From positions 77,194 to 113,146 of the forward strand of contig CAKMKH010000060.1 of NCBI GenBank assembly GCA_927441705.1: 35,953 nucleotides of DNA. Reading direction: 5' to 3'. Numbering within the stretch: the stretch's first letter is position 1; each line of letters opens with the position of its first letter. The position numbers were made by a program, and so were the translations under genes. The notes beneath the pieces are model-generated. The model was not told the DNA's origin. It searched no databases and saw nothing but the letters and a program-made list of their open reading frames with translations. The DNA is from an uncultured Acholeplasmataceae bacterium (GTDB lineage Bacteria > Bacillota_I > Bacilli_A > Acholeplasmatales > Acholeplasmataceae). Below, one piece after another: positions 10,493-15,780 of the stretch.

Positions 10493-12901
10493 ATGTATTA
10501 TAATTTTAAGGACATAGAAACAAAATGGCAGAATTATTGGCACGAAAATAAACTGTTTAAAACGCAAAATGACCGATTTAAAGAGAAGTATTACGTTTTA
10601 GACATGTTTCCCTATCCAAGTGCAAATGGCCTTCATGTTGGACACATAGAAGGATATACAGCAACTGACATTGTCAGTCGCTTTAAACGTATGCAAGGGT
10701 ATAATGTTCTTCATCCGATGGGATGGGATGCTTTTGGTCTACCTGCAGAACAATATGCGTTATCTACTGGTAAAGATCCAAGAGAGTTTACATATCAAAA
10801 CATTGAAAATTTTAAACGTCAAATTATTGAATCTGGTAAGGGTATAGATTGGGATAGAGAGTTTGCGACTGCAGATCCTGGATATTTCAAATGGACCCAA
10901 TGGATCTTTAAGAAGATGTATGAACATGGATTAGCAGTTTTAAAAGATGTAGAAGTTAATTGGTGTGAAGGACTAGGCACAGTTTTAGCTAATGATGAAA
11001 TCGAACTTGTTGATGGGAAAATGGTTTCTGAAAGAGGCGGTTATCCTGTTGTTAAAAAAGCAATGAGACAATGGGTTCTTCGTATTACAGAATATGCTGA
11101 TCGCTTATTAGATGATCTTGATCTTCTTGATTGGCCAGAACACCTTAAAGAGATGCAAAGAAACTGGATTGGCAAATCTGAAGGTGCAATGATGACTTTT
11201 AAAGTTGACCAATTAGATGAGGATTTCGAAGTATTCACTACTAGACCAGATACTATCTATGGGGCAACTTATTGTGTATTAGCACCAGAACACCCATTAG
11301 TGCTTCAAATATCTAGTGAAGATGAAATGGCAGAAGTGAAAAAATATATTGAGATCACAAAATCTAAAACTGATATTGATAGATCTATGGATAAACAAAA
11401 AACAGGTGTTTTTACTGGTGCATATGCAATCAACCCTGTTAATAATAGAAAAGTACCTATTTGGATTTCTGATTATGTATTACCACATTATGGCACAGGT
11501 GCTGTGATGGCTGTACCTGCACATGATGAAAGAGATTTTGAATTCGCACAAAAATATGGTCTTGATATTATTGAAGTTGTTAGAGGTGAATCTGAAGGCG
11601 CATTTACTGGCAATGGTATTCACTTTAATTCAGGAATCATTGATGGATTAAATAATGAAGATGCGAAAGCAAAAATTGTTGAATATTTAGAAAAAACAAA
11701 ACAAGGCTATAAACATGATACATATCGTTTAAGAGATTGGGTGTTTTCTAGACAAAGATATTGGGGAGAACCTTTTCCTGTCATTTTTGATGAAAATGAT
11801 CAAATTTATCTTTTAGATGATGAAGATCTACCACTTGAATTACCGATATTAAAAAATATTAGACATAGTGGTACCGGTGAATCTCCACTTGCTAATGCAC
11901 ATGATTGGTTAAATGTTGATTATAAAGGTACTAAAGGTAGAAGAGATACAAATACTATGCCACAATTAGCGGGTAGTTCTTGGTATTTTATGGGTTATAT
12001 TTTAAAAAATCATTTATCAATGGTTCCTCTTGATTCAGATGAAGCGAAAGCTTTACTTGATACTTGGTTACCAGTAGATTTATATATTGGTGGAACTGAA
12101 CATGCAGTAGGTCACTTACTTTATGCACGTTTTTGGACTAAATTCTTATATGATTTAGGTCTAGTTTCTCATAAAGAACCATTTAAAAAACTATTTAATC
12201 AAGGCATGATCTTAGGAGATGACCATTCTAAGATGAGCAAATCAAAAGGAAATGTTGTTAATCCTGATGAAGTAATTGAATCTCATGGTGCAGATTCTCT
12301 ACGTCTATATGAAATGTTTATGGGACCTTTAGAAGCTGAAAAGCCATGGTCAACTGAAAGTTTAAATGGAGCTAAAAAGTTCTTAGATAGAGTTTGGAGA
12401 ATGTTTGAATTTGAAGTTGTTAATGAAGAGGTAAAAGATTTAAGAACTATTTATCATCAAACTGTTAAAAAAGTGACTGATGATTATGAAAAACTTGCTT
12501 TTAACACAGCAATTAGTCAAATGATGATTTTTGTCAATGAAGTCTATAAAGTTCAAAAGATTTCAAAAGATCAAGCAAGAGGATTCTTGAAATTATTAAA
12601 TCCAATTGCGCCACATATGACTGAAGAAATCAATGAAGCGCTATTAAAACAAAACGAACAGTTATTATATGCTGAATGGCCAACATATAAGGCATCTTAC
12701 TTAATCGTAGATGAAATTGAATTTGTTGTTCAAATTAACGGTAAGTTAAGAGCTAAATTTATTGATAGCAGAGAAATCACCCAAGATGAGTTGAAACAAA
12801 AAGCACTTATCCAAGAAAATGTTGTTAAACACTTAGAAGGCTTAACAATAAGAAAAGTAATTGTGATAAAAGATAAGTTAGTTAATATCGTCGCTAATTA
12901 A
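10493..12901 (+). CDS. leuS: Leucyl-tRNA synthetase
   Basis: An 802-residue class I synthetase of usual bacterial length, joining leucine to tRNA-Leu. The ATP-binding HIGH motif appears as HVGH at residues 48-51 ([12 protein letters not shown]), and KMSKS is at about residue 582. The CP1 editing domain is inserted at about 220-400, with [13 protein letters not shown] and the [20 protein letters not shown] motif needed to hydrolyse mischarged tRNA. The anticodon-binding and C-terminal domains complete the protein. The ATG has GAAGG upstream. It is transcribed alone between its own promoter and terminator. One of its substrates, tRNA-Leu(GAG), is encoded at 32514-32599. Confidence 0.98.
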
Positions 12902-12914
12902 GTATTAATCAAAT

Positions 12915-12950
12915 AAAGTGGAGTAAGCATTTGCTTATTTCGCTTTTTTT
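12915..12950 (+). terminator. leuS terminator
   Basis: A 14-bp stem (AAAGTGGAGTAAGC with GCTTATTTCGCTTT, a few G-U pairs in RNA) with a short loop and a T-run. Confidence 0.8.
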
Positions 12951-12991
12951 TATCGTTGTTAGTGATAAAATGAAGTATAGAAAAAAATATA

Positions 12992-13021
12992 CCAATAATT
13001 TAGACAACTATTTTGTATATA
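12992..13021 (+). promoter_or_regulatory. Putative alternative-sigma promoter of the sigma/anti-sigma operon
   Basis: CCAATAA, exactly 15 bases, TGTATATA. The same two words at the same spacing stand before the lipoprotein gene (14643-14672). In both places the motif ends 6-8 bases before the ribosome site, as expected for a promoter with a very short leader. It fits neither a standard -35 nor a standard -10, so autoregulation by the ECF-like sigma encoded here is the simplest reading. Confidence 0.55.
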
Positions 13022-13040
13022 TAGTGTAAGGGGAATGTTT

Positions 13041-13556
13041 ATGGGTAAGCAAATGAATGAAATCATCAAAGCATTTAAGCAAAAAAACTACGAATCATTT
13101 GATCAGTTTTATGAAATGACGAATCGTCAAGTATACTATGCAATCATCCAAATTGTTAAAGATGATGAGGTTGCAGCAGACTTGATGCAAGAAGTCTATA
13201 TGACTTTTTTAGAAAAAATAGATCAATTTAGACTAGACGGTAATGTATACGCTTATTTATCAATGATGGGTAGAAATACAAGTATTAATTATTATCACAA
13301 ACAAAAAAGAGAAGTTCATTCAGATGAACTTTTAGAAACATTTGAATCAGAAGAAAAAGTAGTTGATAAAGATGTCAGTGACATCTTATCATTACTAAAT
13401 CTATTAAATAAAGATCAAAGAGAAGTTGTCGTACTACATACGATTAACAATCTTAAATTTAAAGAAGTTGCTGAAATTATGGATAAACCACTTGGAACAG
13501 TATTGTGGCTTCATAGTGAAGCAATCAAAATATTAAAAACGAAGGTAGGTGATTGA
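13041..13556 (+). CDS. ECF-like sigma-70-family RNA polymerase sigma factor
   Basis: A small (about 171-residue) sigma factor with only regions 2 and 4. Region 2 is seen in DDEVAADLMQEVYMTFLEKI and the following VYAYLSMMGRNTSINYYHK. Region 4 is LLNLLNKDQREVVVLHTINN followed by LKFKEVAEIMDKPLGTVLWL, a helix-turn-helix. It should direct RNA polymerase to a small regulon. The second ATG (13041) is chosen because AAGGGG lies 7 nt before it. The ATG at 13035 would be too close. The next gene begins 1 nt after the stop and encodes a membrane protein, the usual place for an anti-sigma factor. It resembles ECF factors more than SigI. The target promoter may be the CCAATAA-N15-TGTATATA motif. Confidence 0.88.
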   Translation: MGKQMNEIIKAFKQKNYESFDQFYEMTNRQVYYAIIQIVKDDEVAADLMQEVYMTFLEKIDQFRLDGNVYAYLSMMGRNTSINYYHKQKREVHSDELLETFESEEKVVDKDVSDILSLLNLLNKDQREVVVLHTINNLKFKEVAEIMDKPLGTVLWLHSEAIKILKTKVGD

Positions 13557-13557
13557 T

Positions 13558-14625
13558 ATGAAAGATAAAAAAGTCATGAAAATCATTAAACAAAAAGCAG
13601 ATGAAAAACAAATTCCAAATGTATCAATGCTTATTAAAGAAAAACTAAATATCAATCAACAAATTCAAGAAGAACGCATTATTGTTAAAAAAAGATTTAA
13701 CTTTAAAGCTTTATACGTTTCGTTTTCTTTAGTACTAACTGCATCAGTTGTTGTTGTACTTACATTACTTAGTCAAGGACAAAGTGTTGATTTATTCGAT
13801 AATTCTGAATTTAGTGATCAAGTTATATTATCTGCAATCTCAACAGTTGAACTTATAGATCTAGATACTGAGCTTAACGTTGATTATTCAACAAACGTTT
13901 TATTATCATTAGAAGATGAAGATGATTTTGTTGAAAATCAAATTGATGAAGTATTAAAATATACTGAATTTATGGAAACATTGTTAAATAATCCTGATCA
14001 ATATCAAAAAGAGATTAAAGAAGTTTCATATTTAGGATATAAAAATCTTTTATCTTATGAGTTTAAAGATATGATGGGCGAAACGAATACCTATAATTTT
14101 TATTATCATCAAGATATCGATAGTAAAAGTAATACATATAAAATTAAAGGTTTATTGGTAACTGAAGATGATAATTTCGAACTTACTATTGATGGTTTGA
14201 TAGCTGAAGATGAATTTGTAATGACTTATCATATTGATGAAAATCAAAAAATAAATGTAATTTATCAAATGATTAATAACGAACATCAATTGACATTAAA
14301 AAGATATAATCAAAATATCATCATGAAAGAATCAAAGATTAACTTTAATAATAAAGAAGAAGCAACACTTACATTTATAAAAGGAGAAGCTAAAGGTATT
14401 TATCGTTTCCAAATGGATCAAGAGTTTATAAATGGAAAACAAATGCGAATTAATTATAAAATCGATGATATTGATGAAGGTGAAATTGATCTTTTAGTAG
14501 AATCAGAAACAAATCATAGCTATATCATTAATATTAGACCAGATAATAGACCTGAAATCATAGTAGAACGCGATAGACCAATGCAACCTGGACATGGAAG
14601 TAGACCAGATAATGGAAGAAATTAA
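13558..14625 (+). CDS. One-pass membrane protein, probable anti-sigma factor
   Basis: I do not recognise the family. The 355-residue protein has a basic cytoplasmic N-terminus of about 50 residues (KDKKVMKIIKQKADEKQIPN), one membrane segment at about 51-72 (ALYVSFSLVLTASVVVVLTLL) and a long acidic outer region. A proline/arginine-rich tail contains RPDN twice (IRPDNRPEIIVERDRP, then SRPDNGRN). There is no zinc-binding ZAS Cys/His motif. The ATG at 13558 has AGGTGA upstream, and the gap to the sigma gene is 1 nt, so translation is probably coupled. Gene position, topology and the downstream RsgI-like lipoprotein together support an anti-sigma role (inference). The cytoplasmic part is short for that job but long enough for a helical sigma-binding segment. 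Confidence 0.7.
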   Translation: MKDKKVMKIIKQKADEKQIPNVSMLIKEKLNINQQIQEERIIVKKRFNFKALYVSFSLVLTASVVVVLTLLSQGQSVDLFDNSEFSDQVILSAISTVELIDLDTELNVDYSTNVLLSLEDEDDFVENQIDEVLKYTEFMETLLNNPDQYQKEIKEVSYLGYKNLLSYEFKDMMGETNTYNFYYHQDIDSKSNTYKIKGLLVTEDDNFELTIDGLIAEDEFVMTYHIDENQKINVIYQMINNEHQLTLKRYNQNIIMKESKINFNNKEEATLTFIKGEAKGIYRFQMDQEFINGKQMRINYKIDDIDEGEIDLLVESETNHSYIINIRPDNRPEIIVERDRPMQPGHGSRPDNGRN

Positions 14626-14642
14626 CAAAATTTAAGAAAATC

Positions 14643-14672
14643 CCAATAAAAACGGATGTCAGAATGTATATA
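14643..14672 (+). promoter_or_regulatory. Putative alternative-sigma promoter of the RsgI-like lipoprotein gene
   Basis: CCAATAA, 15 bases, TGTATATA, identical in words and spacing to the motif at 12992-13021. The AGGAGG ribosome site begins 8 bases downstream. No terminator separates the anti-sigma gene from this gene, so read-through is also possible. Confidence 0.55.
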
Positions 14673-14694
14673 GAGTGAATAGGAGGTATTCATT

Positions 14695-15780
14695 ATGAAA
14701 AATTTAAAATTAGTTTTAACATTTATCGCATTATTTGCAGTAGTAGGATTAATCGTCGGGTGCAGTACAACAGCACAAGCCGAAGATAGTTATGTTACTT
14801 TAGATATCAACCCTAGTGTTGAATTGATCGTTTCACCAAGAGACAAAGTTATTTATGCAAATCCATTAAATGAAGATGCAGAGGTATTATTAGTAGAACT
14901 AGACTTAATAGGTATGGATTTAGAAGATGCTATTGATCTTATTATAGAAACATCAATCGAATTAGGATATATCTCAGTAGACGAAGACACTGAAACTTAT
15001 GTATCAGTATCAACAATCAACACTGATGATGCAATTCAAGAAAAAATTCAAAATAAAGTTAAAGAACATGTAAACAAGGCGTTTGAAGACAGAGGTATGT
15101 TTGGAAAAGCGAAAGATAAAGAATTCAATCAAGAATTCCTTACTGAAGCTCAAAGTTTTGGAGTTACTCCAGGATTTTTATTCCTAGCAAAAGAAGCTGT
15201 AGAACTTAAGGATGATTTATTACTAGAAGATGCTGTCTTAATGACAAGAGCAGAACTATTAGATATCGTTAAGGAAGCTAGACAAGCAGCTAAAGATGTA
15301 GCATTTGAATTAAGAGATGAATTTCATGCAGATCGTGATGCACTATTCTTAGAATATCATCCACAAATCGAAGCATTAGAAGTACAAATCTTAGCAATTG
15401 AAACAAGAATTTTAGAAATTGATGCAGAAATACTTGCACCAACTGAAGAAACTGTTGTTGAAGACTTAGAAGCTGAAAAAGCTACTTTAGAAACAGACCT
15501 TGAAACTTTAGAAGCTGAGTTAGAAGCATTACAAGTTGAATTCAAAGAAAAACTTGAAGTGATTAGAGATGAATTTCATACTCAAAGTCAAGCTTTAAGA
15601 GAAGCTTTCAAAGAAGCTAAACAACAAATGAGAAATCAACATCAAGAAACTGTAAATCAGTTTCGTGAAGAAATGGAAGACCGCAAAGACCAAATGAGAG
15701 ATCGTATTAGAGAATATCAAGAAGGTCAAGAAGATGAAGAAACTAACGAAGAAACAAATGGTAACGCATCAAACAGATAA
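14695..15780 (+). CDS. Lipoprotein with RsgI-like DINPS domain and long coiled coil
   Basis: A 361-residue surface lipoprotein. Signal peptide residues 1-22 end in LIVGC, with Cys23 lipidated. Residues ~32-100 (SYVTLDINPSVELIVS, VIYANPLNEDAEVLL, LEDAIDLIIETSIELGYI) closely match the extracytoplasmic middle domain of RsgI-type anti-sigma-I factors. That domain is known to self-cleave at the Asn-Pro bond, here Asn39-Pro40. After it comes a helical region, then at ~235-345 a highly charged Glu/Leu-rich coiled coil ending in a Gln/Arg/Glu-rich tail. In known RsgI proteins this domain sits in the same chain as the membrane segment and sigma-binding domain. Here it is separate and lipid-anchored. 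Strong AGGAGG site. It shares a promoter motif with the sigma gene. Confidence 0.8.
   Translation: MKNLKLVLTFIALFAVVGLIVGCSTTAQAEDSYVTLDINPSVELIVSPRDKVIYANPLNEDAEVLLVELDLIGMDLEDAIDLIIETSIELGYISVDEDTETYVSVSTINTDDAIQEKIQNKVKEHVNKAFEDRGMFGKAKDKEFNQEFLTEAQSFGVTPGFLFLAKEAVELKDDLLLEDAVLMTRAELLDIVKEARQAAKDVAFELRDEFHADRDALFLEYHPQIEALEVQILAIETRILEIDAEILAPTEETVVEDLEAEKATLETDLETLEAELEALQVEFKEKLEVIRDEFHTQSQALREAFKEAKQQMRNQHQETVNQFREEMEDRKDQMRDRIREYQEGQEDEETNEETNGNASNR

Follow-up and report, generated by a model that had tools for sequence, protein, structure and literature searches.

A CCAATAA promoter motif predicted to be read by an ECF sigma factor in an uncultured Acholeplasmataceae bacterium and its relatives

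Introduction

AAC/CGT promoter elements, an anti-sigma factor and autoregulation were the early hallmarks of ECF sigma factors, which were later defined by the sigma2 and sigma4 domains alone, as described in the accessible portion of PMC8103513. For SigH, the available text of PMC6411747 gives a -35 element GGAAYA, an optimum of 17 bp to the -10 element and GTT in the scaffold, with contacts from R186 to G-34, from S182 to G-33 and from M181 to A-31. At the -10 element, ECF promoters follow a rule X-G-T-Y in which X is C or G, according to the accessible part of PMC10575876. In the SigI-RsgI systems, a SigIC domain replaces sigma4, and the anti-sigma factor carries an RsgI_M periplasmic domain.

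The DNA considered here, referred to as the window, is the whole analysed stretch of 35,953 nucleotides from an uncultured Acholeplasmataceae bacterium (GCA_927441705.1, contig CAKMKH010000060.1, positions 77,194 to 113,146). An initial annotation of the window had pointed to a two-part motif that recurs with identical spacing ahead of a sigma gene and a lipoprotein gene, and had proposed it as the candidate recognition sequence of that ECF-like sigma factor, providing autoregulation and induction of the lipoprotein.

Results

The sigma gene and its module

The module comprises an ECF sigma gene, a gene for a single-TM protein that starts from the sigma gene end, and a lipoprotein gene, in that order, and no further regulator gene was found in it. 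The preceding gene (10493-12901) ends at 12901, and its intrinsic terminator (12915-12946, forward strand) separates it from the sigma operon.

The sigma gene occupies 13041-13556 on the forward strand and matches TIGR02937 (2.6e-21), PF04542 (1.3e-10) and PF08281 (6.5e-9). Its ORF was listed from the ATG at 13035, but the ATG at 13041 better suits the GGGG at 13030. The domain composition is that of the ECF (group IV) sigma factors, with only sigma2 and sigma4 domains and a short linker; in the place where SigI has SigIC, this protein has a sigma4 domain, matched by both PF08281 and PF04545. A second ECF sigma gene, G000:C76:4887-5363 (L031), encodes the same GTVLW helix and has no CCAATAA box ahead of it.

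Upstream of the motif, TGATAAAAT (12963-12971, forward strand) resembles an extended -10 element and is a probable housekeeping signal. A TAxAAT-like hexamer occurs no more than 45 nt ahead of the box in 23/29 sigma regions versus 8/30 lipoprotein regions, a difference that makes a basal housekeeping promoter ahead of the sigma gene likely.

The gene that begins at the sigma gene end (13558-14625, forward strand) belongs to no Pfam family and probably encodes an anti-sigma factor. Its AlphaFold2 model shows two helices in a short cytoplasmic part, a single TM helix (49-72) and an extracellular beta-rich domain, with a mean pLDDT of 78 and values below 65 in the cytoplasmic part. At all 21 loci where one was sought, a long ORF predicted to encode a TM segment starts at the sigma end. 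Pfam searches found no RsgI family in this protein (P0002) or in 26 relatives, and the RsgI_M periplasmic domain typical of the anti-sigma factor in SigI-RsgI systems is not part of it. Foldseek with the model returned nothing at E<=0.001; MucB, which ranks second (E 0.088), was set aside as a structural match, as was the best VIA-align result (Z 7.1), which is tied with unrelated beta folds. PDB sequence searches with the alignment of this protein gave chance-level matches only.

The lipoprotein gene (14695-15780, forward strand) encodes an RsgI_M (SEAL-type) domain (PF23750, 6.4e-27) and a helical C-terminal part. The protein has a lipobox Cys23 and a predicted autocleavage site at Asn39-Pro40, and these three residues are invariant in 24/24 aligned lipoproteins. 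Five cleaved RsgI crystal chains in the PDB begin at the proline aligned with Pro40. The domain match and the Asn-Pro site place the protein in the RsgI_M/SEAL family, with cleavage as a prediction. The G032 lipoprotein (L161, minus strand, 1420-1120), which lies outside the 24-member alignment, has an insertion at the Asn-Pro position and keeps its promoter, and a lipoprotein reading frame at L122 (G028:C15:85297-87422), behind the same promoter, contains three RsgI_M-like stretches in its roughly 790 residues. The lipoprotein matches of G086 and G087 (L094, L156) contain an internal TAA, for which decay or an assembly error is possible.

The motif at the two window sites

The sequence CCAATAA-N15-TGTATATA is present exactly at 12992-13021 and at 14643-14672, which bears out the initial annotation at both coordinates and lies far above chance. 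Ahead of the sigma operon, the -35 box CCAATAA is located at 12992-12998 and the -10 box TGTATATA at 13014-13021 (forward strand; T-14, G-13, T-12 and A-11 in ECF numbering), with a predicted transcription start at about 13026-13028. Ahead of the lipoprotein gene, the -35 box at 14643-14649 and the -10 box at 14665-14672 (forward strand) are again exact and are conserved in orthologues, with a predicted start at about 14677-14679. The Shine-Dalgarno cores, GGGG at 13030 and AGGAGG at 14681, stand 8 bases past each motif end.

These two copies are the only exact ones in the window genome (1.76 Mb), and a search of that genome with two mismatches stayed at noise level (25 matches versus 20 for the reversed control). 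In the 88 genomes of the family, the exact 30-mer gave 21 matches versus 1 for the control. The conserved unit is larger than the 30-mer and approximates (A)CCAATAAA-N14-(T/C)GTATA-N3-4-RTG. No Rfam families were found within 12880-14720.

The spacers of the sigma and lipoprotein promoters have a mean within-genome identity of 35% over 27 genomes. The interiors are therefore unrelated and the promoter was not recently duplicated, a conclusion that the initial annotation had already drawn from the differing spacers in the window.

Conservation in the family

A close sigma orthologue (E<=1.8e-43) is found in 33 of the 88 family genomes, and a lipoprotein orthologue (E<=2.7e-38) in the same 33. 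The upstream regions of 30 sigma and 30 lipoprotein loci were compared, and CCAATAA-N16-GT precedes 29/30 sigma genes and 30/30 lipoprotein genes, always with an interval of 16 bases, so that the motif is in register in 59 of the 60 regions. The initial annotation had named lack of conservation before orthologues as grounds for refuting its proposal, and this result does not refute it. Dinucleotide shuffles (200 rounds) left the motif in a mean of 0.1 of 60 regions, with a maximum of 1. The single miss, the sigma gene of G037, has no box, but its contig begins only 171 bases upstream. Outside the 30 loci, further sites precede sigma genes in G075, G076 and G087 and lipoprotein genes in G009, G087 and G032, and at least one site of the relaxed pattern defined below is present in every one of the 33 genomes that carry the close sigma orthologue.

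One genome, G010, has a promoter (C33:7221-7255; L111, L163) that is near-identical to the sigma promoter of G009 with no sigma gene behind it. No other relaxed-pattern site is present in that genome, and this one is probably a relic left after loss of the module.

Predicted targets across genomes

A relaxed pattern, CCAATAA-N16-GTA-N6-RTG, was scanned across the 88 family genomes with the reversed pattern as a control, and gave 94 sites in 44 genomes versus 6 control sites. A gene start follows 87 of these sites, one is the relic, and six, the same number as in the reversed control, have no gene or lie inside an ORF. The genome-wide search suggested by the initial annotation thus yields a coherent set of targets: 29 sigma genes, 31 orthologous lipoproteins, five further RsgI_M lipoproteins, six S8 proteases (secreted, subtilisin-like), three DUF2202 proteins and one trypsin-like protein, together with four sites before a membrane protein of 171-184 residues, five before a protein of 255-261 residues that adjoins a divergent sigma gene, and three before a different lipoprotein, which a sigma follows in G012 and G017. 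Pfam matches were obtained for the targets tested, namely one S8 protease (1.5e-50), two DUF2202 proteins (1.7e-7 and 6.3e-7) and the trypsin-like protein (6.3e-18), while the remaining identities were assigned by eye from translations.

In the window genome, a relaxed-pattern site precedes an S8 protease gene at C23:5772, and a near-match at C14:3227 stands ahead of a DUF2202-like gene. A search of the genus with three mismatches, using a pattern one base off at the 3' end, was at noise level (29 versus 33 control matches), and two of its sites, L306 and L314, were accepted as plausible only because DUF2202-like and S8-like genes follow.

Breadth across the order and beyond

When 160 genomes of the order are considered, the relaxed pattern reaches two further families. 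In the sister family f2, CCAATAA precedes all 20 of the sigma orthologues fetched, which are the better-scoring among all f2 matches. The second half of the f2 sites is mostly TTGTTTAAAG, because of which they are missed by the strict GTA pattern, and the -10 element has drifted to TGTTTA. Among 40 homologues at a greater distance (L257-L296, from Izemoplasma-like bacteria, Clostridia and others), of which at least six lie on contigs already counted in other sets, 30 have the box; it is absent in L259 and several others. The sets of 30, 20 and 40 were all fetched by protein. Over 107 distinct homologues, CCAATAA-N14-18-GT occurs within 260 bases upstream in 84, whereas eight permuted 7-mers are present in only 0-9. 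In a quick tree, the box accompanies 68/70 main-clade sigma genes and 0/6 sigma2 paralogues. Some tree members were fetched via the motif itself, and the total is inflated by them. The -35 element is constant while the -10 element drifts between clades, as TGTATA, CGTATA or TGTTTA.

In several genomes of family f4, the motif stands ahead of a leader that resembles a hairpin and of a flavoprotein-like gene with the sequence GGGPAGL (L179:425, L181:479, L183 minus strand 360 and L185:370), which suggests an additional target or an element of the leader. An association by mutual information of the -11 base with residues of the sigma2 domain was set aside as confounded by descent, with seven changes on the tree.

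The motif and the sigma4 helix

In the SigH register, the motif reads CCAATA-N17-GTA, as compared with the GGAAYA-N17-GTT of the available SigH text. It has the ECF GT at -13/-12; GT is followed by A or T and preceded mostly by T or C, as against X = C or G in the rule as excerpted from PMC10575876. Of the ECF -35 element with its AAC core, CCAATAA keeps AA, with T in place of C and CC in place of GG. Judged by its letters, the motif is thus ECF-like at the -10 element and non-canonical at the -35 element. A consensus scan detected no promoter of the sigma-70 type at this site.

A profile alignment of the 84 motif-bearing homologues places Trp at the position of SigH S182 in all 84, a conservation that in the distant homologues was partly selected for because the search seeds included the peptide GTVxW. 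The position of M181 is Leu in 81/84, and that of R186 is Lys in 63/84 and Glu in the window sigma. From these correlations between helix and promoter, we infer that the window sigma reads the motif directly.

Discussion

Interpretation of the motif

The motif very probably serves the ECF sigma factor encoded at 13041-13556 as its autoregulatory and regulon promoter, in line with the proposal of the initial annotation. That it is instead an operator or activator site for another DNA-binding regulator of the same genes is very unlikely: neither half repeats the other, its orientation and 16-base interval are fixed, the second half, which is similar to the ECF -10 rule (as given in the accessible part of PMC10575876), is only a few bases from the leader that comes after it, the site accompanies the sigma clade across the order and outside it, and the module has no other regulator gene. 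The paralogous sigma2 (G000:C76:4887-5363) has the same GTVxW helix with the invariant Trp (6/6), and might read the motif in place of, or together with, the neighboring sigma. However, sites occur in genomes with no detected sigma2 paralogue (for example G001, G030, G078, G086 and G087), and none occur in genomes with only a weaker, sigma2-type match (G011, G015, G019, G020, G023 and G033), with G039, a genome 85% complete, as an exception to that pattern. The sigma2 genes themselves lack the box, both in the tree and in four upstream regions compared, so that the motif tracks the main-clade sigma gene, and we give a role of sigma2 very little weight. Least credible of all is a housekeeping sigmaA promoter that has TATATA as its -10 element and no -35 element. 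The TATATA of the window genome is indeed similar to TATAAT, but the same site reads TGTTTAAAG or CGTATTAT in other clades, the CCAATAA box at its fixed distance would be left unexplained, a separate TAxAAT hexamer is available upstream in 23/29 sigma regions, and the consensus scan was negative at the motif.

Under the preferred reading, with the neighboring ECF sigma at its own promoter, CCAATAA would be the -35 element, bound by sigma4, and (T/C)GTATA the -10 element, melted by sigma2, 17 bp apart as CCAATA-N17-GTA. The probable housekeeping promoter just upstream would provide a basal level of sigma, and the motif before the sigma gene would establish positive feedback on sigma and on the putative membrane anti-sigma factor. 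An envelope signal would cause the anti-sigma factor to free sigma, and a surface set would then be induced, with the second copy of the motif switching on the RsgI_M lipoprotein, and additional copies in that genome a DUF2202-like protein and an S8 protease that is secreted.

A broader proposal, which we hold as possible rather than probable, is that a Ser to Trp change in the sigma4 helix has altered the -35 element of an ECF subfamily found across the order, from GGAAC to CCAAT, and that this subfamily drives a surface-remodelling regulon, the autocleaving RsgI_M domain having moved off the anti-sigma factor onto a self-induced lipoprotein that may serve as a feedback sensor.

These results predict, at genome scale, the regulon of a so far uncharacterised clade of ECF sigma factors in wall-less and related bacteria. 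They also offer a natural test of how ECF sigma4 sets -35 specificity, with AA kept, GG changed to CC and one invariant Trp, and may supply a sigma/promoter pair that is orthogonal. The presence of RsgI_M on a separate lipoprotein raises a question of envelope sensing.

Comparison with known systems

The open-licence literature yielded nothing on this sigma clade or on a CCAATA -35 element of ECF type, which may be in print elsewhere; a single match to CCAATA proved to be a table of CRISPR repeats. Mapped promoters are available for Acholeplasma laidlawii, a member of the same bacterial family (PMC5138195), and the accessible part of that study describes TTGACA/TAWAAT promoters and putative alternative sigma factors, with no mention there of ECF. 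The SigI-RsgI systems of Bacilli and Clostridia share the RsgI_M (SEAL-type) domain with its Asn-Pro cleavage site. However, the sigma factor here has a true sigma4 domain, RsgI_M is carried by a separate lipoprotein, itself a predicted target, and not by the TM protein, and the promoter is unlike the A-tract/CGWA type described in the available portion of PMC10575876. The likeness to SigH/RpoE-type ECF systems extends to the two-domain sigma factor, the adjoining membrane protein as a probable anti-sigma factor, the motif before the sigma factor's own operon, the 17-bp interval and the GT at the -10 element. The difference from them is found in the -35 element, CCAATAA here and GGAAC there, and in the sigma4 helix, which reads PLGTVLW(I/L)Y in this clade and PxGTV(M/R/K)(S/T)R in the SigH/RpoE type.
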